Of a stretch of 40,885 bases of DNA, positions 7,804 through 30,067 are shown in pieces. The notes under the pieces were generated by a model. That model ran no database searches and was not told the DNA's origin. It worked only from the letters and a program-made list of their open reading frames with translations. Position numbers and translations under genes: made by a program. How positions within the stretch are numbered: the first letter of the stretch is position 1; every line of letters starts with the position of its first letter. Origin of the DNA: a virus. The stretch lies in IMG/VR virus record IMGVR_UViG_3300036760_000297, positions 1 to 40,885 of that record; one strand, given 5' to 3'.

Positions 7804-9012
7804 ATGGCGTACACCGTCAACAGCGGCAACGTCGACACCGCCGACCCGACCGCGAGTACCGACATTCGGTCGGTCGCGAAGGCGATGTCATATCTCGACC
7901 AGGACAACACCCAGTTCACGACGATGCTTCAGCGGATGCCGTCGGAGCAGATCGCGCACTGGAAGCATGAATGGCCGGAAGACCAGCTGCTTCCGCAGCA
8001 CACGTCTCTCTCGGCTTCGATCACGAGCGGCGCGACCGTGATCACGGTGACGACCGACGAGGGTGTGATTGCCCGCGCCGGCGACGTGGCGCTCTGCACG
8101 ATCACGGGCGAGCGGATGCTGATCACGAATCAGTACGCCTCGGCCTGGTCGGTGGTGCGCGGCTTCGGAGGCACGGCGGGCACGTCGTCCGTGTCGGCCG
8201 GGGCGAAGATGGTGATCGTCGGCAACACGAACGAGCAGAACGCTGCTGCGCCGACGGCGATCATCACGGCCCGGACGATCAACTACAACTACTCGGGCAT
8301 CTTCCGCGATGTTCTCGACTTCGCCGGCACCACGGAGGTGCTGCAGTACTACGGCGAGGAGGGCGGCCTGTTCTCGTCGGAGAAGCGGCAGAAGCTGATC
8401 GAGCACAAGTGGCGGCAGGAGCGCGCGGCCTTCTGGGGCGCCCGCGCCTACACCACCGGCTCGAACGGCAAGCCGCAGACCTCAACAGGAGGCCTGTTCG
8501 ACTTCATCTCGTCGAACAGGACGAACGTGTCGGCATCGCTCGGCACGTCCGAGTTCCAGGACATCCTGCGGGTGGCGTTGCAGTACGGGAACCGTGCTCG
8601 CAAGGTGCTGTTCGTCGCTCCGCTCGTGGCCCAGGTGATCTCGTCGTTCCTGTCTGCCAACTGGGTGCGGGCGACTCCGCAGGACACGGTCTGGGGCGTC
8701 AGCGTCGACTACGTGGTCTCGGGTGCCTTCGCGGGACGCGAGATCCCGGTCGTCGTGAAGACGGACTGGATGCGGTTCGGCGAGGTCGGCGGCTTCGACC
8801 CGGGTACGTGCGGGTTCATCGTCGACATGGACAACGTGGCTCGACTGCCGCTGGTTCGTAACGGCGTCAACCGGGACACGCACTTCCGCGACAACATCCA
8901 GAACAACGACATCGACGGCCACAAGGCCGAGTACCTGACAGAGGTGGCGTACCGCTTCCAGGTGGAGCAGTCGCACTCCCTGTTCTACAACGTGCTCGTC
9001 GCTGCGGCGTAG
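7804..9012 (+). CDS. Major capsid protein
   Basis: The 402-residue protein resembles the DUF5309/SU10-type major capsid family with the HK97 fold: the segment TARTINYNYSGIFRDVLDFA, then GTTEVLQYYGEEGGLFSSEK and a helix with KLIEHKWRQERAAFWG, then TGGLFDFISSN are in the order expected for that family. An inserted beta-rich domain near residues 65-150 (SASITSGATVITVTTDEGV) looks like a surface insertion. It starts at ATG 7804 with GGGACGG 6 bases upstream and lies directly downstream of the scaffold. The family assignment is from remembered motif order. Confidence 0.85.
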   Translation: MAYTVNSGNVDTADPTASTDIRSVAKAMSYLDQDNTQFTTMLQRMPSEQIAHWKHEWPEDQLLPQHTSLSASITSGATVITVTTDEGVIARAGDVALCTITGERMLITNQYASAWSVVRGFGGTAGTSSVSAGAKMVIVGNTNEQNAAAPTAIITARTINYNYSGIFRDVLDFAGTTEVLQYYGEEGGLFSSEKRQKLIEHKWRQERAAFWGARAYTTGSNGKPQTSTGGLFDFISSNRTNVSASLGTSEFQDILRVALQYGNRARKVLFVAPLVAQVISSFLSANWVRATPQDTVWGVSVDYVVSGAFAGREIPVVVKTDWMRFGEVGGFDPGTCGFIVDMDNVARLPLVRNGVNRDTHFRDNIQNNDIDGHKAEYLTEVAYRFQVEQSHSLFYNVLVAAA

Positions 9013-9090: not shown

Positions 9091-9672
9091 ATGCATTTCG
9101 TTTCGGAGAACGCAGGGCGGCTTCTAGTCCGTCCCTCGAAGGACGTGTTTTCGCAGGCGTCGGGCGAGAAGGTCGCGATCCTGCCGACGATCTGGCTGAA
9201 GTACGAGCGCGGGATGTGCCCGGACTGGGCGGCGGCGGCGGCAGCAGCGCATTTCAGCTTCTCGAAGCGGCCGAAGCCGGGCTCTCTCGGTGGTGCCGAC
9301 ATTCCGGTGGCGACGTGGTGCGTCTACGTGGACACGGAGGCGTGGGCAGTGATGAACGGCCACGACGACGCGATCAGGGAGTTGGCCGAGGAGAAGCTCC
9401 TCGCTGACCCGGAGATGCTGCGGGTGGTCCCGCCTGTGCAGCGTCTGCCCTGGCCGAACTACGACAAGCTGGCGGTGCAGGGTTCGCGGACGGCCGAGAA
9501 GGTCGCGGCCCGGAATCTCGAGACGGCGGCCGAGATCGGTGTCTCGCTCGACGACCTGATCGCGTACGAGTCGGCGACGCTGAGGCGTGAGGGTGTGCTG
9601 GCGGCGTATCAGGAAGCTTTGGACGCGGTTGTGCCGGATCCGGTCGCGGCGGCGTTCGCCGTCGAGGCGTGA
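9091..9672 (+). CDS. Unknown structural-operon protein (193 aa)
   Basis: The ATG at 9091 has a GGGAGGGA ribosome site and is preferred over the in-frame GTG at 9046. The protein has a mixed alpha/beta N-terminal half with an Ala run (WAAAAAAAHFSFSK) and a helical acidic C-terminal half. Its position between the capsid protein and the transferase cluster fits a head-completion or accessory virion protein. I do not recognise a family and see no catalytic motif. Confidence 0.6.
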   Translation: MHFVSENAGRLLVRPSKDVFSQASGEKVAILPTIWLKYERGMCPDWAAAAAAAHFSFSKRPKPGSLGGADIPVATWCVYVDTEAWAVMNGHDDAIRELAEEKLLADPEMLRVVPPVQRLPWPNYDKLAVQGSRTAEKVAARNLETAAEIGVSLDDLIAYESATLRREGVLAAYQEALDAVVPDPVAAAFAVEA

Positions 9673-9703
9673 CCTGAGCGAGCAAGGAGAACCCCTCCAC
9701 GAT

Positions 9704-11359
9704 GTGACCGTGGTCGTGCCGTTCCTTCGCGGCGGCAACGAGCAGTGGCTCGCGCAGGCAAAGGGCGGCTTCCCGGCCGGGCAGAAACTGATCGTCGTCG
9801 AGAACGACGGCGAAATGGCCGAAGCTCTGAACGACGCGATCATCAACCACGTCGAGACGCCGTGGGTGTACCGCTTCGACGCCGACGACATCGCAGGGCC
9901 GCTCCTCCTCCAGCAGCTGCGGGACGCGGTCTGGGACGGAGCGGACGGAGCCTACCCCACGATGATCCTCGTCCCGGAGGAGCGGGCGCCAGAGGGGTTC
10001 GTGCCGATCGGCGTCCATCACGCCGACCAGTTCTGTTCGCATCGGCTGGAGACGTACAACTACATCACGGGCGCATCTCTGTTTCGGCGTGAGATGTTCG
10101 TCAAGGTGGGCGGCTACCGGGATCTGCCGGCGCTCGAGGACTGGGATCTGTGGCTGCGGATGGTGCGCGAATGCGGCGCCCGCCTCAAGGCGGTGCCGGA
10201 GGCGTTCTTCTACTACCGACAGGTTTACGGATCGCGGAACAAGCACACGGGCGACCCGCTCGAGATGAAGCGGCTCTACAACGAGATCACGGGTGAGCGC
10301 CCAAGGCCCGACGACCTCGCGACGTTCTACTTTCAGGGCACCCCGATGGTCGCCCATCTCCGCTGCGTCAATCCGGCCAAGTGGCTGCCGGGGATCGCAC
10401 AGCCTGCGTATCAGGTTCCCTACACCGAGCATGAGGAGCAGCCGCGGATGCGGTTTCTCCACCATCGCGGCGCGGCGGTGATGCAGTTTGCCTCGACGCA
10501 GGCGGATTCGCTGATCGGACGGTGGCTCCAGTTGAACGGCCATCCCTTGTTCGTCGAGATGGACGACAACTACACCGTCACGGGCGGCCGGATCGCCAGG
10601 TGGGCGAACTGGCAGGCGAAGGTGATCGAGAAGGGGAAGGCCCTGGAGGCGCAGAAGCCTTCGGTGGAGGGGCACATCAGGATCGTCAGGTCTGCCGACG
10701 GGGTGATCTGCACGACGGAGTATCTGGCGGAGCAGTACAGGCCGCTGAACCCGAACGTGTGGGTGTGCCCGAATCAGGTGGAGCCGTCGGAGTGGCCGGC
10801 GGAGCCTCTGAGCCCGGACGACGGGATTGTGCGGATCGGCTGGTTCGCGTCGGGGTCGCACGACCGCGACTACCCCTTGATTGCGAAGGCGCTGCGCTGG
10901 GCGGGATCTCGGAAGAATGTCGAGATCGTCTCGATGGGCGTCGAGATCAGCGAACGGAAGATCCTGCGCTACAGGCCGATTCCGTGGTGTGACGACTGGG
11001 GCGTCTACCGCCTGGCGCTCGGAGCTCTCGACATCGGTCTTGCACCTATCCTTGCTACGCCGTGGTCGCTCGGACGCTCTGACCTGAAGGCGCTCGACTA
11101 TGCGATGGGAGCGGCGCTGCCGATCCTCCAGGACGACCGGCCGTACGAGGAGTGGGTCCACGGCGTCAACTGCTTGAAGGCCAAGACGCCGGAGGATTGG
11201 CTCAGGGCCGTCAAGTACGCGGTCTACAACGCGGAACGGCGTCGTGAGATCGCGGCTGAGGCGCGGCGCTACACGCTGGAGGAGCGGACGTTCGAGAAGA
11301 ACTCCTACAGGTGGGCTGAGGCGATCTCCTCGGCGCGCAGGGAGGCGGTTGCAGCGTGA
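9704..11359 (+). CDS. Two-domain glycosyltransferase (GT-A plus GT-B type)
   Basis: The N-terminal domain (about residues 1-200) is GT-A family 2-like: a VVVPFLRGG start, VENDGEMAEALNDAI, and a DADD metal-binding motif (59-62), then LEDWDLWLRMV typical of the acceptor side. The C-terminal domain (about 230-551) resembles GT-B family 4 enzymes, with FVEMDDNYTV, ADGVICTTEYLAEQY, IGWFASGSHDRDYPLI and an ALPILQDDRPYEEWV segment. It should move a sugar from a nucleotide donor to a protein or glycan acceptor in the cytosol. GTG 9704 lies 13 bases after AAGGAGA, somewhat long, so the start is uncertain. The next gene overlaps by 4 bases. The location within the structural operon suggests virion modification. 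Confidence 0.85.
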   Translation: MTVVVPFLRGGNEQWLAQAKGGFPAGQKLIVVENDGEMAEALNDAIINHVETPWVYRFDADDIAGPLLLQQLRDAVWDGADGAYPTMILVPEERAPEGFVPIGVHHADQFCSHRLETYNYITGASLFRREMFVKVGGYRDLPALEDWDLWLRMVRECGARLKAVPEAFFYYRQVYGSRNKHTGDPLEMKRLYNEITGERPRPDDLATFYFQGTPMVAHLRCVNPAKWLPGIAQPAYQVPYTEHEEQPRMRFLHHRGAAVMQFASTQADSLIGRWLQLNGHPLFVEMDDNYTVTGGRIARWANWQAKVIEKGKALEAQKPSVEGHIRIVRSADGVICTTEYLAEQYRPLNPNVWVCPNQVEPSEWPAEPLSPDDGIVRIGWFASGSHDRDYPLIAKALRWAGSRKNVEIVSMGVEISERKILRYRPIPWCDDWGVYRLALGALDIGLAPILATPWSLGRSDLKALDYAMGAALPILQDDRPYEEWVHGVNCLKAKTPEDWLRAVKYAVYNAERRREIAAEARRYTLEERTFEKNSYRWAEAISSARREAVAA

Positions 11360-12609
11360 GTTGGATCAGCAACTGCCGTTCGTGCGATTCGCTAGGTCTC
11401 GAGCCGGTTCTCGACCTTGGGGCGCAGCGGCTCACGGACTTCCGCGACGACGACAAGTTGGGGAAGGCGTTTCCGCTCGATCTTGTCTACTGCTCGGACT
11501 GCCATCTCGTCCAGTTGTCGTACAGCGTGCCACCCGAGCTGATGTACCACGACCGCTATGGCTTCAAGTCGGGCGTCAACGAGGCGATCCGTGCCGATCT
11601 CCATTCGATCGTCAAGGACGGACTTCGCCTCCACCCTGACCCACGAAGGTGGCTTGACATCGCGTCCAATGACGGCACCCTGCTCTCGTACGTCAACGGC
11701 GACATCCTCGACCAGTCTGACTGGCACTCCCGAATCCTGACCGTCGGTATCGACCCTGTTGCCCCGCTGTGCGCCGAAGCGGTGGCGCGCGCGGACCAGA
11801 TCATAAACGACTACTTCGCGCCCGGGCTTGTTGCCGAGCATGGCCCGTTCAACGTGATCACGTCGATCTCGATGTTCTACGACCTGGACGATCCGAACGA
11901 GTTCGTGGAGGGCGTCAAGCGGGTGCTCGCGGCCGGCGGCGTCTGGATCGTGCAGCAGAACTACGTCGGCTCGATGCTCGACCTGAACGCGGTCGACAAC
12001 ATCTGCCACGAGCACCGCGAGTATTACTCGCTGCTGGCGCTGAATGCGTTGCTCGACCGACACGGCCTGGAGGTGTTCGACGTGTCGCTTTCGTCGGTCA
12101 ACGGCGGCTGCTTCAGAACTGCGATCGCGCGAACTGGGGAGCGAAAGGTCAGCGCGAACGTGTACCGGCTGATGGGCGAGGAGTCCGTGACGGGGATCGG
12201 GGAGGTCGGCAGCTACCGTCGTTTCGCCGCTGACGCGCTCGACACGCTCGACGCGATCGGAAGCCTGATCCGGGGAATCATCGCTAAGGGTGAGCGCGTC
12301 TGGATCTACGGCGCTTCGACGAGGGGCGGCACGATCTGGCAGGGTGCCGGGCTGACGCGCGACGATCTGCCGTTCGCGGTCGATCGGAACCCGGCGAAGG
12401 TGGGGAAGTTCATGTCGTCGATCGGGTCGGAGATCATCTCGGAGGAGCGGGCGCGCGCCGAGCGGCCGGAGTACATGGTGGTGTCGCCGTGGTTTTTCCG
12501 CGATCTGTTCGTCAAGCGCGAGCGCGACTATCTCGCGGCCGGCGGCAAGCTGATCTTCCCTTTGCCGGAGCTCGAGGTCGTGTCCGACGCGAAGGCGATA
12601 GCGGCGTGA
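11356..12609 (+). CDS. Sugar C-methyltransferase-type enzyme
   Basis: The 417-residue protein has the three-part layout of NDP-hexose C-methyltransferases (TcaB9/NovU-like): an N-terminal zinc domain with Cys7-x2-Cys10 and Cys46-x2-Cys49, a SAM-binding Rossmann domain with DIASNDGTLL (101-110) and CHEHREYYSL, and a C-terminal domain with WIYGASTRGGTIWQ. Such enzymes add a methyl group from S-adenosylmethionine to a keto-sugar nucleotide. GTG 11356 overlaps the previous stop. Sitting between two transferases, it probably tailors the sugar they attach. The exact substrate cannot be read from sequence. Confidence 0.85.
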   Translation: MSWISNCRSCDSLGLEPVLDLGAQRLTDFRDDDKLGKAFPLDLVYCSDCHLVQLSYSVPPELMYHDRYGFKSGVNEAIRADLHSIVKDGLRLHPDPRRWLDIASNDGTLLSYVNGDILDQSDWHSRILTVGIDPVAPLCAEAVARADQIINDYFAPGLVAEHGPFNVITSISMFYDLDDPNEFVEGVKRVLAAGGVWIVQQNYVGSMLDLNAVDNICHEHREYYSLLALNALLDRHGLEVFDVSLSSVNGGCFRTAIARTGERKVSANVYRLMGEESVTGIGEVGSYRRFAADALDTLDAIGSLIRGIIAKGERVWIYGASTRGGTIWQGAGLTRDDLPFAVDRNPAKVGKFMSSIGSEIISEERARAERPEYMVVSPWFFRDLFVKRERDYLAAGGKLIFPLPELEVVSDAKAIAA

Positions 12610-13250
12610 TCGCGATCTACTGTCCTACCTACGGTCGTCCCGGTTCATTGCAGCGACTGGTCGACAACGTCTCGGCTGTGACGACGACTCCTCACAGGGT
12701 CGTGTTCGTGGTCGAGTCCGACGACTCCGCCTCCTCCGAGGCTGCTAGTGCGACCGGGGCGACCGTTCTCTACAACGAGGGTGACCCGGGGTATCCAGGA
12801 AGCATCCAGACCGCTTTCGACAACGACGACAGCGAGTTCTTCGTGACCGCGAACGACGACTTCGACTTCCAGGCGGGGTGGGACACGGAGGCGCTAGCGA
12901 AGATGGTGGAAGGCGTCTGCGTCGTTGGTCTGAACGACGGGTCGGGGAACGGTGTCCTTTCGACGATCGCGTTCGTTCGCCGCTCGTACATCGTCGAGCA
13001 GTCGGGCGTGGTCGATATGCCGGGGCGTGTGTTCGGCCCGTATGGGCACAATTTCGCGGACACGGAGTTCTACGCGACTGCCGTGGGGCGAGGGGTGTTC
13101 GCGTCGGCACCGGAAAGCGTGGTCGTGCATATGCACCCGGATTTCGGACGAGGACAGTGGGACGGCACGTATCACCGAAGCCGCACGATGTTCGGTCGTG
13201 ACGCTCGCACGTTCTCGTCTCGGAGGCATCTGTGGGAGGCGGTCGAGTGA
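12606..13250 (+). CDS. GT-A family 2-like glycosyltransferase
   Basis: GTG 12606 overlaps the preceding stop; the open frame upstream is ignored. The 214-residue protein begins IAIYCPTYGRPGSLQRLVDN, the usual nucleotide-sugar-binding start of GT2 enzymes, followed by VVFVVESDD and a metal-site-like TANDDFDF. HMHPDFG near residue 180 could supply the late metal or acceptor ligand. It is short and lacks a membrane anchor, so it should be a cytosolic transferase acting on a protein or small acceptor. It forms a tight three-gene unit with its two neighbours upstream. Confidence 0.75.
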   Translation: MIAIYCPTYGRPGSLQRLVDNVSAVTTTPHRVVFVVESDDSASSEAASATGATVLYNEGDPGYPGSIQTAFDNDDSEFFVTANDDFDFQAGWDTEALAKMVEGVCVVGLNDGSGNGVLSTIAFVRRSYIVEQSGVVDMPGRVFGPYGHNFADTEFYATAVGRGVFASAPESVVVHMHPDFGRGQWDGTYHRSRTMFGRDARTFSSRRHLWEAVE

Positions 13251-13637
13251 CGCGCGTCGACCCGGGGATACCGAACCTCGAGGTGGAGTTCGGCGACGAG
13301 GTGTTCCAGCGTTCGGACGGTCGGGTGGTGGCCGGGACGCGGTTCGTGGTGGACGAGGAGACGTGGGGCCAGCTGATCTCGGGCTACCGCTGCATGAAGT
13401 GCATGCACGTACAGTCGGAGCCGTTCCCGGAGCAGTGCGAGGCCGAGTCCCACATCGTCAATGACGTGCTCGGCGTTGTCGATTGGCGCTGTCCGATGCG
13501 GATGCGCGACGATCAACTGCGCGAGCTGATGCAGGACTTCGGCGGTTTTGAGGATCGTTCGCTGCGTGACCCGTACGACGTGATCGACGTCGAGCAGGAG
13601 GACTGGAAGGCTCGCTCGGGGATCTGGCTTCCGGGCA

Positions 13638-13648
<11 letters not shown>
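13247..13648 (+). CDS. Small Cys-containing protein, unknown (133 aa)
   Basis: GTG 13247 overlaps the previous stop (GTGA) and is preferred to GTG 13232. The middle carries YRCMKCMHVQ, Cys at EQCEAES and WRCPM, a possible zinc-binding site with four Cys. The rest is acidic (DVEQEDWKAR). The protein lies just before the fibre gene. The ordering of paired Cys residues resembles small zinc proteins seen in other phage structural operons, but I cannot name a family. Confidence 0.6.
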
Positions 13649-16605
<2,957 letters not shown>

Positions 16606-16609
<4 letters not shown>

Positions 16610-17172
16610 GCAAACCGGCGTTCCTGTTCTCCACTCGGCCGCACGTCAACGATACCAAACCAAATATCGTGGTGCCGTATGCGAACGCCGAAAGCGAATC
16701 GTTCGTCCATAAAGCCATGAAGCTGAACCTGCTCATGCAGGGATTGAAGCCACGGATGGAACGCCTCGACGACACGCTCGATGCGGATTTCGCCTATGCG
16801 CGTCTGTTCCGGTCGCTGTGGCAGGAAGAACGGCCGTTCGTTCTCGTCGAGCACGACATCCTGCCGTGGCCGGGAGCATTGCAGCAGATATGGGAGTGCG
16901 AACATCCGTGGTGCGGTTTCCGCTATTACATCTTCGGAGAGTTACGTTCGGCGCTTGGCTGCGTCAAGTTCGATCCCGTTCGCCTGGGCGAATGCCCGCT
17001 TCCCGATGAACTCATTCCGTGGTCGAAGATTGATATGAAAGTGATCCGTTCATTGTCCGAACGGGGCGAACGCGGCCATCTCCACGAACCTGCCGTTGGA
17101 CATCTAAATTACGGCCATCAGCGAATCACGGCCCCAGAGGGGATCATCCAACCCACCTGGATAAACGAGTGA
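16606..17172 (+). CDS. Putative glycosyltransferase-like protein (188 aa)
   Basis: GTG 16606 overlaps the previous stop. A segment PFVLVEHDILPWPGALQQIW looks like the metal-binding stretch of a GT-A fold, with EHD in place of the usual Asp-x-Asp, followed by CEHPWCGFRYYIFGELRSA. I have a memory of similar proteins in actinophages labelled as glycosyltransferase-like. The short C-terminus ends with HLHEPAVGHLNYGHQR. Base composition resembles the fibre gene rather than the rest. The assignment is moderate because no family-wide motif is complete. Confidence 0.55.
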
Positions 17173-17232
17173 GAGATATGAGATGATAGAAAAGCATCAG
17201 AAAGTGCGAACTAATCCTTGGGTCTGGGTAAA

Positions 17233-18069
17233 ATGACCGTCTCTCTCGTCATGCTCGCCGGAGGCGCCGCCGCCAACCCGGTGGCCGCAATCGAGTCCGC
17301 CCTAACCCTGATCGACAGCTACCAGGTCGTCGACACCGGCATCCCCGCCGATACCCGTCAAGCGATAGAAGGGGCGCTCGCCGACCTTCCCGGCGACCTG
17401 GTCGACGATCCGTGGGACGGCAGCGGCCCCGGCTTCACACGCGCCTTACAACGCGCCCAAGGAACAGCCGATTGGCTTCTCCATCTTCACGCTGACGAAG
17501 TAGCCGAGATTCACCCTGACATGCGCGAATGGCTCCAAGCCGACGAATCACCCGACACCGACGCATGGATGCTCGAGATCGTCAACCCGCACCTCACCCA
17601 CCGCCTGCCACGACTCCTGCGAGGCAACCAAGAATGGATCTACCAAGGCTGCGCCCACGAATACCTGGAAATCGCGGGCAGACAAACCAGATGGCTGAAC
17701 GGACTCACTTTGCATCACCACGGTTGGAGTGACCCGGCCAAGTTCGAGTGGGCGCTGGAAGCACTCAAGCCCGCCTACGAAGCCAAAGAGCCGCGAGCCG
17801 TGTTCTATACCGGTGAGTCGCTCAGAGATTTAGGCCGCACCGAAGAAGCAATCAGTGTTTACCGCGAACGGGCCGCGATGAACAACGGCTGGGACGAGGA
17901 ACGATGGTACGCCAGCTACCAGGCCGCGGCACTAGCGGGCGACGTCGAGGAGCTCCTGTACGTCTACCGGCTGCGGCCGTGGCGAGCCGAGCCGTTGGCC
18001 TTCGCCGCTCGCATCATCGCCCACCAAGGCCACGGCGACGACACCCTCTTCATCGAGGAGGTCGCATGA
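17233..18069 (+). CDS. Family 2-type glycosyltransferase with TPR-like C-terminus
   Basis: ATG 17233 is chosen within a slightly longer frame beginning at 17218. It has an N-terminal beta-strand start (SLVMLAGGAAANP), the segment TADWLLHLHADEVAEI, where HADE matches the position of the metal-binding Asp-x-Asp motif, and WIYQGCAHEYLEI, the usual acceptor-side signature of this GT2 subgroup. The C-terminal half is helical with TPR-like repeats (GESLRDLGRTEEAISVYRER). Such fusions often glycosylate proteins or peptides. It is the fifth carbohydrate-active candidate around the fibre. Confidence 0.75.
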   Translation: MTVSLVMLAGGAAANPVAAIESALTLIDSYQVVDTGIPADTRQAIEGALADLPGDLVDDPWDGSGPGFTRALQRAQGTADWLLHLHADEVAEIHPDMREWLQADESPDTDAWMLEIVNPHLTHRLPRLLRGNQEWIYQGCAHEYLEIAGRQTRWLNGLTLHHHGWSDPAKFEWALEALKPAYEAKEPRAVFYTGESLRDLGRTEEAISVYRERAAMNNGWDEERWYASYQAAALAGDVEELLYVYRLRPWRAEPLAFAARIIAHQGHGDDTLFIEEVA

Positions 18070-28949: not shown

Positions 28950-29180
28950 ATGTCCGGCAAGTTCGTAGGCGCACACGTCTGGGCCGACTTCGGAGACGCC
29001 CTCCCGGAACTCGGAGGCCCGGTGCTCGCGCACGTCGTCGAAGGCGCGCACGACAACGCTGCTGGCGAAACCAAGTACGGCATTCAGGCGCCCGACGGGT
29101 CACGGCACGAGCTCGCCTACCGTGAGCCCGACGACCGCGACGACGCAGGATCGGGCGGCACCTTCTGGACGATCACGTAG
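28950..29180 (+). CDS. Small unknown protein after the lysis genes (76 aa)
   Basis: The ATG follows GAGCATGAC with a weak ribosome site. The sequence is acidic with His-rich patches (HVVEGAHDNAAGETKYGIQA) and no membrane segment; its end is Asp/Gly-rich. The next gene appears to share its last bases, since the HTH gene's frame overlaps the end of this one. I cannot name the protein. Confidence 0.55.
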   Translation: MSGKFVGAHVWADFGDALPELGGPVLAHVVEGAHDNAAGETKYGIQAPDGSRHELAYREPDDRDDAGSGGTFWTIT

Positions 29181-29599
29181 CAGCGTTCCCCGAAACCGGC
29201 AGAGAGTGCGCCAGCCGCGGCACGGATGTTGAACTGATCTACCGCGAATGGCTCACCAACCAGATCGGGAAGACAGGCGAGGAACTCGAGCGGTACATCG
29301 CAGCGAGGACAGCATACGGAGCGGTCATCGAACGCCACGAAAACAAATCGAACCAGCGAACCGACCTGTCCAGAACAGCGCTGCAGGCCGCCAGACAGCA
29401 GGGCCGGCTGACCGACGCGCAGGTGCGGGCGCTTGATCTTGCCGCGGATGGGCTGATGGAGAAGGAGATCGCCGCCCGCATGAACATAGCCGAATCGACC
29501 GCTCACGCCCACCTGGCCGTCGCACGCCGCGTCTTGGACGCTAGGAACACGGCGCACTCCGTCAGGCTGGCGATCCGCGCGGGTGCGATCGCCGCGTGA
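29165..29599 (+). CDS. LuxR/GerE-type helix-turn-helix protein, start uncertain
   Basis: A clear reading frame runs to TGA 29599 and ends in a complete LuxR/GerE-like HTH: LTDAQVRALDLAADGLMEKE, then EIAARMNIAESTAHAHLAV, then ARRVLDARNTAHSVRLAIRAG. Upstream lie 75 or so further codons with charged helical residues (IYREWLTNQIGKTGEELERY) that also look coding. No ATG, GTG or TTG precedes the HTH in this frame after the stop at 29123-29125, so the start given (CTG 29165) is provisional; CTG 29234 is an alternative, or the frame could be joined by a -1 shift from the previous gene. It could regulate late or early transcription. Confidence 0.6.
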   Translation: MDDHVAAFPETGRECASRGTDVELIYREWLTNQIGKTGEELERYIAARTAYGAVIERHENKSNQRTDLSRTALQAARQQGRLTDAQVRALDLAADGLMEKEIAARMNIAESTAHAHLAVARRVLDARNTAHSVRLAIRAGAIAA

Positions 29600-29633
29600 T
29601 GGAGCATCCTGCGTCTGTGGTAGCGTTCATGTT

Positions 29634-29704
29634 CGCGCTCTGGAGGAATGGCACCTCGGCGGCCTCATAAGCCGCAGGACCGAGTTCGACTCTCGGGGGC
29701 GCTA
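29634..29704 (+). tRNA. tRNA-Met (CAU), initiator-like
   Basis: A complete cloverleaf can be drawn by hand: acceptor CGCGCTC with GGGCGCT, U8-G9, D arm GAGG/CCTC with loop AATGGCA, anticodon arm GCGGC/GCCGC with loop CTCATAA (CAU anticodon), a 4-base variable region AGGA, and T arm CCGAG/CTCGG with loop TTCGACT. CCA is not encoded. The first base pair is a C1-U72 mismatch and the second D-stem pair is A11-U24. In bacteria, a mismatch at 1-72 and a purine 11-pyrimidine 24 pair are features of initiator tRNA. The three G-C pairs of the anticodon stem are only partly present. Confidence 0.85.
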
Positions 29705-29730
29705 TAGGTAGTAGCTCGCCGGGTATCGAG

Positions 29731-29760
29731 GTCGCCGGTTCGAGCCCGGCCGTCGCACCC
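29731..29760 (+). other. Orphan tRNA 3' half (T arm plus acceptor strand)
   Basis: A perfect T arm (GCCGG, loop TTCGAGC, CCGGC at 29734-29750) is followed by a 7-base acceptor-like strand CGTCGCA and CCC. I found no matching 5' acceptor strand, D arm or anticodon arm in the 30 bases between it and tRNA-Met, which is too short for a full tRNA. It could be a degraded tRNA, an attP-type core from integration at a tRNA gene (no integrase is visible), or a tRNA-like structure. Confidence 0.4.
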
Positions 29761-29788
29761 TAAAGCTTGACCGGACGATGTAGCACCC

Positions 29789-29819
29789 CCCGTCCCTCTA
29801 TGTGAGGGGCGGGCGCTTT
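29789..29819 (+). terminator. Strong hairpin terminator of the late operon
   Basis: A 10-base-pair stem (CCCGTCCCTC with GAGGGGCGGG, one G-U pair) and a TATGT loop are followed by CGCTTTCGT. The T-run is short, as is common in GC-rich genomes. It lies between the tRNA and the next promoter, so it would end the long left transcript. Confidence 0.75.
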
Positions 29820-29899: not shown

Positions 29900-30067
29900 A
29901 TGTCGGAACAGGTCGCCACAACCAAGGCACGCTCGGAACACATCACACTTCGGCTGGACGAGAAGATCGTGGCCGAACTCCGGCGCGTCGCCGCCCTGAA
30001 CGACCGTAGCGTCTCCTCACAGGTACGCATCCTGCTTCGCGACGCACTGCGGGAATTAGCAGCGTGA
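29900..30067 (+). CDS. Ribbon-helix-helix (Arc-type) repressor
   Basis: ATG 29900 comes about 3 bases after the expected transcript start. The 55-residue product has the Arc/MetJ fold pattern: a beta strand EHITLRLDEKIVAELRRVA, then NDRSVSSQVRILLRDALRE. The strand residues in ITLRL would insert in the major groove as a dimer. It is the first gene of the early operon and sits beside a spacer dyad, so it is a strong candidate for the operon's repressor. Confidence 0.8.
   Translation: MSEQVATTKARSEHITLRLDEKIVAELRRVAALNDRSVSSQVRILLRDALRELAA

Follow-up and report, generated by a model that had tools for sequence, protein, structure and literature searches.

Does a phage tRNA in which the G:C run of the anticodon stem is broken still belong to the initiator type, and could it serve in initiation? 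Three consecutive G:C pairs (the 3GC run) are taught as a near-universal signature of initiator tRNA. The question is raised by the sole tRNA gene of IMG/VR record IMGVR_UViG_3300036760_000297, whose 40,885-nucleotide stretch (the window) was analysed as a whole and carries genes for a large terminase, a portal, a tail fibre, an exonuclease, a methyltransferase and RusA. ARAGORN called this gene as tRNA-Met(cat) with bounds of 29633-29705, and the Rfam match, whose score (Table 1) compares with a gathering score of 29 (E = 8e-8), coincides exactly with the position given in the preliminary description. Both programs agree with that description on the CAU anticodon, and the gene is real.

Table 1. 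Coordinates of the tRNA gene and neighbouring features in the window.
Feature	Position	Strand	Evidence
Initiator-type tRNA (CAU), without encoded CCA	29634-29704	+	ARAGORN; Rfam RF00005, 49.7 bits; manual and scripted reading of features
Anticodon arm GCGGC-CUCAUAA-GCCGC (tRNA positions 27-43)	29659-29675	+	Sequence, structure parse, comparison
tRNA remnant that lacks the anticodon arm; an elongator-like D arm runs straight into the variable loop, T arm and 3' acceptor strand	29707-29761	+	Partial tRNA-Gly identity
10-pair G+C-rich hairpin 3' of the tRNA and the remnant, possible transcript end	29789-29813	+	Fold z -2.66

The cloverleaf is complete, as had been proposed. The acceptor stem (CGCGCUC/GGGCGCU) forms six of seven pairs, with C1·U72 as the sole unpaired position and U·G at 6:67; the D stem (GAGG/CCUC) forms four of four (G10:C25, A11:U24, G12:C23 and G13:C22), and the anticodon stem and the T arm (CCGAG-UUCGACU-CUCGG) each form five of five. 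Positions 1 and 72 are open in both the ARAGORN and the Rfam structures, ARAGORN draws an additional outer U(-1)-A73 pair, and none of the folds examined for a paired alternative joins 1 to 72. G2:C71, C3:G70, G4:C69 and the discriminator A73 are also present. At -30.3 kcal/mol, the cloverleaf comes within 0.3 kcal/mol of the most stable predicted structure (-30.6 kcal/mol), whose fold is different, and 12 bacterial initiators evaluated in the same way gave cloverleaf energies of -26.7 to -31.5 kcal/mol; the fold z of the window tRNA is only -1.3. The variable loop comprises four bases (AGGA), so that 15·48 is A·A. Loops of this length were found in 2 of 88 viral and 0 of 117 bacterial initiator-type tRNAs among the matches listed. 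Inspection by eye revealed non-standard or swapped Levitt pairs in several viral initiator-type tRNAs: A15·A48 in the window, L093, L269 and L270, and U15:A48 in L052, L316 and L334.

The determinants of formylation in initiator tRNA include the 1-72 mismatch, G2:C71, C3:G70 and A11:U24, as given in the accessible text of PMC7949028, and all those that could be checked are present in the window tRNA. Their diagnostic value was assessed with tRNAs from 120 bacterial genome loci among the matches listed (272 tRNAs found, 252 parsed and 20 unparsed). Among the 117 parsed initiators, 1-72 is unpaired in 115, A11:U24 occurs in all 117 and both features occur in 115, whereas none of 135 parsed non-initiator tRNAs, eight of them with a CAU anticodon, has an unpaired 1-72 or A11:U24. 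Elongator and lysidine-isoleucine identities are therefore unlikely. The mismatch is C1·U72 in 27 of the 117 initiators, including Mycobacteriaceae and Streptomyces loci. A viral control covered 228 loci among the matches listed (1031 tRNAs found, 708 parsed and 323 unparsed); an unpaired 1-72 was observed in 14 and A11:U24 in 18 of 518 parsed non-CAU tRNAs, and no tRNA had both. Judged by these counts, the combination in the window tRNA is probably more than chance.

Initiator-type tRNAs are no rarity among viruses, since each of two scans of viral_contigs returned at least 120 matches; that elongators make up most phage tRNAs is a fair statement that needs this addition. The 1-72 position is unpaired in only 114 of 168 viral CAU tRNAs of the pattern type (among the matches listed), which indicates that viral initiator-type tRNAs relax this position too. 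Among 22 other viral CAU tRNAs, 12 have both an unpaired 1-72 and A11:U24, and 10 have neither. Gordonia phage GodonK and Streptomyces phage Muntaha each carry an initiator-type beside an elongator-type CAU tRNA, which argues against the initiator type being a mere substitute for an elongator. The window tRNA lies on an IMG/VR viral contig and carries the formylation determinants and G30:C40, the features that define the viral class. The initiator type proposed in the preliminary description thus stands on the 1-72 mismatch, G2:C71, C3:G70, A11:U24 and A73; the tRNA is not a canonical initiator, because the G:C pair at 31:39 is lost. The roles put forward in the same description, a supply for many GTG and ATG starts or a mimic that alters initiation, are candidate functions.

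This departure went unnoticed in the preliminary description. Initiator tRNAs carry G29:C41, G30:C40 and G31:C39 (PMC7949028 and PMC11497404, in the parts available). The anticodon stem of the window tRNA contains G29:C41, G30:C40 and C31:G39; two of the three initiator pairs are present, and C:G at 31:39 breaks the GGG/CCC run. A single pattern that left positions 27-31 and 39-43 free was run on the viral and bacterial collections and returned at least 120 loci in each. Among the matches listed, 120 viral loci (32 without a well-folded parse, 13 structures discarded) yielded 88 tRNAs, of which 81 were unique, and 120 genome loci (10 without such a parse, five structures discarded) yielded 117, of which 90 were unique. 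In these sets of matches, a pair other than G:C occupies 31:39 in 17 of 81 viral and 0 of 90 bacterial initiator-type tRNAs (Fisher 1.1e-6), 29:41 in 56 of 81 and 19 of 90 (Fisher 2.9e-10), and 30:40 in 3 of 81 and 0 of 90 (p 0.10). The middle pair is thus G:C in 78 of 81 viral initiator-type tRNAs versus 354 of 501 other viral tRNAs, so its retention exceeds the tRNA background. All 17 viral departures at 31:39 are still standard pairs, which points to a maintained stem.

On the sequences compared, a relaxed 31:39 pair appears to be a wider viral habit that is rare in bacteria. When the changed-31:39 pattern was run on the phylum of a Mycobacteriaceae genome, it matched 2 of 296 genomes, and one of the two matches is a tRNA; in the phylum of a Pseudomonas genome it matched 3 of 150, again with one tRNA. 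The change is therefore rare, rather than absent, in assemblies, and the two tRNAs may belong to prophages. The unrestricted pattern matched 57 of 60 genomes of the Mycobacteriaceae-genome phylum, and GGG precedes CUCAUAA in all listed matches but one, a sequence in genome G024 (contig 195) that is not tRNA-like. The literature searched, with subscription papers largely outside its scope, contained no report of viral enrichment of 31:39 changes.

The outer pair follows a different course. Among the matches listed, 19 of the 90 unique bacterial initiators have A:U or U:A at 29:41 (U:A in L134 and L167), which shows that bacteria themselves do not hold strictly to the 3GC rule at its outer pair. 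A29:U41 occurs in Agrobacterium, Bradyrhizobium and Mesorhizobium genome loci, and host lineage may account for part of the 29:41 difference.

A separate viral scan for C31:G39 returned at least 120 matches. Among those listed, 28 structures were discarded and 71 kept, which gave 64 unique well-folded tRNAs, 59 of them with G30:C40. In the matches listed, 1-72 is paired in 29 of the 64 viral C31:G39 tRNAs versus 11 of 64 viral G31:C39 tRNAs (Fisher 0.001). The C31:G39 subclass thus looks, from its sequences, as if it were drifting from initiator use.

The tRNA gene lies between a reading frame for a helix-turn-helix (HTH; LuxR/sigma-like) protein that ends at 29600 and a short protein at 29900-30067. 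The adjoining tRNA remnant was called by neither ARAGORN nor Rfam; its variable loop and T arm are identical in 24 of 24 bases to the tRNA-Gly of one genome. The remnant was considered as an attP core and rejected, as the sequences that it matches, in 119 genomes of a single phylum, amount to no more than T-arm segments of different tRNAs (Gly, Ala, Met and Pro). No integrase was found among the window proteins scanned, which represent part of the ORFs. The hairpin beyond the remnant has no U run after it, and the terminator scan found none at this site. A promoter scan gave no match for the tRNA gene.

The HTH frame spans about 29129-29600 on the + strand (LuxR/sigma-region-4-like; Pfam GerE, 4e-8). 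It is missing from the ORF list, which has a 60-aa cut-off, as no ATG, GTG or TTG start lies far enough upstream; it possibly uses another start codon or arises by frameshift from the ORF that ends at 29180. Several glycosyltransferase-like genes (PHROG matches) lie among structural genes at 9587-18069, beside a collagen-like tail fibre at 13788-16313. The window has no DNA match in the 'phages' collection, neither the product of 7804-9012 nor the HTH protein has a confirmed relative, and the portal resembles distant phages alone, with all 58 records below 60% identity. C1·U72 together with a G+C content of 64.9% would fit an Actinomycetota host; the same mismatch occurs in Methylobacter (L130) and Bacteroidaceae (L133) loci.

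We consider it reasonably likely that the gene encodes a phage initiator-derived tRNA (tRNAfMet type) that is probably functional, is charged and formylated by the host and supplements or replaces the host initiator. The reading starts from what was directly observed: the sequence, the fold, the determinants and the viral enrichment of the 31:39 change. The transcript would be matured by host RNase P and the CCA-adding enzyme and charged by host MetRS via the CAU anticodon. Host Met-tRNA formyltransferase would use C1·U72, G2:C71, C3:G70 and A11:U24; because the formylation determinants are complete, host enzymes should charge and formylate the phage tRNA. IF2 would then deliver it to the P site. 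According to the cryo-EM structures described in the accessible text of PMC11497404, 16S A1339 and G1338 make their A-minor contacts with 30-40 and 29-41, both of which are kept as G:C in the window tRNA; A1339 and G1338 could thus grip the retained G30:C40 and G29:C41. The viral change to C31:G39 would be either tolerated or selected, and it affects the sole 3GC pair that these residues do not contact. During infection, the phage tRNA would add to or replace the host initiator, and it may work less strictly. Its expression, charging, formylation, use in initiation and benefit are predictions from the gene.

The broken run itself counts against initiator use, by analogy with the full 3GC mutant of E. 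coli, in which all three pairs are changed and which is charged and formylated but inactive in initiation (PMC10486304, in the part available). The accessible literature yielded no measurement of the effect on initiation of a change at 31:39 only. Further points against this reading are the divergence of the tRNA, the unusual A15·A48 and four-base loop, the more frequent pairing of 1-72 in the viral C31:G39 set, the decayed tRNA next to the gene and the promoter result. The GGG:CCC run was reportedly addressed by mutational studies in E. coli in 1987 and 1996, to which PMC2268962 refers.

The strongest competitor is that the gene is a passenger in decay, a host-derived initiator tRNA that drifts without use. 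The adjoining remnant, the overall divergence, A15·A48 and the unmatched promoter would all suit such a passenger, but its stems are intact except for the functional 1-72 mismatch and its Rfam score is well over the cut-off. Both A-minor pairs and all the checked formylation determinants are kept, and the viral 31:39 changes are compensated without exception (17/17). We hold decay to be unlikely.

A sharper form of the preferred reading is that the tRNA is a nuclease-resistant replacement initiator. VapC of enteric bacteria cleaves tRNAfMet between A38 and C39 (PMC4105405, accessible text); the change of C39 to G39 lies at this bond, cut by VapC-type toxins, and a phage copy could survive when the host initiator is cleaved. 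The concentration of 31:39 changes in viruses among the matches listed would agree with this, and nuclease-evading changes in the anticodon loop of phage tRNAs have been proposed in the available text of PMC10264068. The change is, however, not focused on the toxin cut site, since 29:41 varies more than 31:39 in the same viral matches. According to the same source, as far as it is accessible, phages generally avoid encoding tRNA-fMet where tRNA-fMet is the target; the many initiator-type tRNAs in the viral scans here come from a phage set other than that of PMC10264068. Resistance to cleavage is quite unlikely to explain the change. The broader proposal of a phage-evolved initiator class with a swapped third G:C, accepted by the ribosome and uncut by defence nucleases, is distinctly improbable.

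The tRNA might instead be an elongator tRNA-Met, or a tRNA-Ile2 in which C34 is modified to lysidine. When the D arm is left out, pair models trained on bacterial tRNAs place the window tRNA at -10.9 bits, on the non-initiator side (in leave-one-out evaluation, initiators scored at least -1.3 bits and others at most -10.0), a value driven by 27:43, 49:65, 5:68 and 6:67; C:G is also the commonest 31:39 pair in other viral tRNAs (158/501). Viral-trained models without the D arm, in contrast, favour the initiator type with +3.2 bits, at the 4.9th percentile of 164 viral initiator-type tRNAs and the 99.8th percentile of 491 other viral tRNAs. The two scores together suggest that the window tRNA is an outlying member of the initiator type. 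All 47 unique non-initiator CAU tRNAs, in which elongator Met and Ile2 are pooled, have a standard 1-72 pair and C11:G24; the window tRNA has neither. An elongator Met identity calls for a paired 1-72 and Y11:R24, a tRNA-Ile2 for a paired 1-72 and C11:G24, and both candidates were rejected because these sequence features are absent. The isoleucine identity, which the preliminary description named beside a fold with a paired 1-72 as grounds for refutation, is, like the elongator, very improbable.

An interfering mimic, formylated and bound by IF2 yet a poor initiator that hampers host initiation or ribosome maturation, has a precedent in the E. coli 3GC mutant, which is charged, formylated and IF2-binding, does not support initiation and interferes with ribosome biogenesis (accessible text of PMC10486304), but that mutant alters all three pairs including 30:40, the window tRNA alters 31:39 alone and the phage also needs initiation, so this reading is highly improbable.

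The viral variants keep 30:40, the most gripped pair, and vary 29:41 and 31:39, the latter unchanged in the sampled bacteria. These natural variants offer ready material for testing which 3GC pairs are important, and whether the initiators that phages carry are spares against tRNA-cutting defences.

Cultured phages carry the same kind of change. In 20 phage records, chosen from much longer match lists and including several CAU tRNAs without an automatic parse, 31:39 is changed in initiator-type tRNAs of Streptomyces phage Muntaha (C1·U72, C31:G39), Rhizobium phage RHph_TM3_3_3 (C31:G39) and Vibrio phage nt-1 (U31·G39), and also of Synechococcus phage S-CRM01, Campylobacter phage C3 and Klebsiella phage FZ41. 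Unparsed tRNAs of Sinorhizobium phage phiM7 (irregular D stem) and Vibrio phage 6E35.1a have C31:G39 and U31·G39, respectively, and a tRNA of Arthrobacter phage Racecar combines C31:G39 with G11:C24. The pair is unchanged in Myrna, ScoobyDoobyDoo, ValleyTerrace, GodonK, CN1A, Bertelyvirus and CBB, and all the Streptomyces, Vibrio and Agrobacterium genome loci have G31:C39. The tRNA-Met of Stenotrophomonas phage YB07 is not of the initiator type (U1:A72, U11:A24). Like the window tRNA, those of Muntaha, RHph_TM3_3_3 and nt-1 have a different standard pair in place of the third G:C; the three phage tRNAs carry A:U at 29:41, where the window tRNA has G:C.

Phage tRNA-fMet genes are already on record, and the relaxed 31:39 pair is the variant. 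tRNA-fMet is annotated in Mycobacterium phage ScoobyDoobyDoo (record note 'fMet') and Erwinia phage Omen. Erwinia phage pEa_SNUABM_47 carries a tRNA-fMet, for which a phage-borne initiator role was proposed (PMC9686651), and single tRNA-fMet genes occur in phiLM21-like prophages (PMC12429752), both according to the accessible texts. These genes resemble that of the window in being initiator-type CAU tRNAs on a phage and, in the phiLM21-like prophages, in being the sole tRNA; ScoobyDoobyDoo keeps G31:C39, in contrast to C31:G39 in the window, which comes from an uncultivated virus. The nearest D and anticodon arms found are those of tRNAs on viral contigs L053 and L303; they are near-identical to the arms of the window tRNA, with a 22-base identical run, C31:G39 and G27:C43. 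The two tRNAs differ in A1·C72, a five-base variable loop and an encoded CCA, and no shared proteins were found between the window and these contigs in the stretches compared; the exact D/anticodon-arm pattern of the window tRNA gave 0 matches in viral_contigs. Compared with bacterial tRNAfMet of the C1·U72 type (Mycobacteriaceae and Streptomyces), the window tRNA shares the CAU anticodon, the CUCAUAA loop, C1·U72, G2:C71, C3:G70, G4:C69, A11:U24, A73, G29:C41 and G30:C40. It differs in C31:G39 instead of G31:C39, in C5:G68, U6·G67, G27:C43 and C49:G65, in the four-base variable loop with A15·A48 and in the unencoded CCA.
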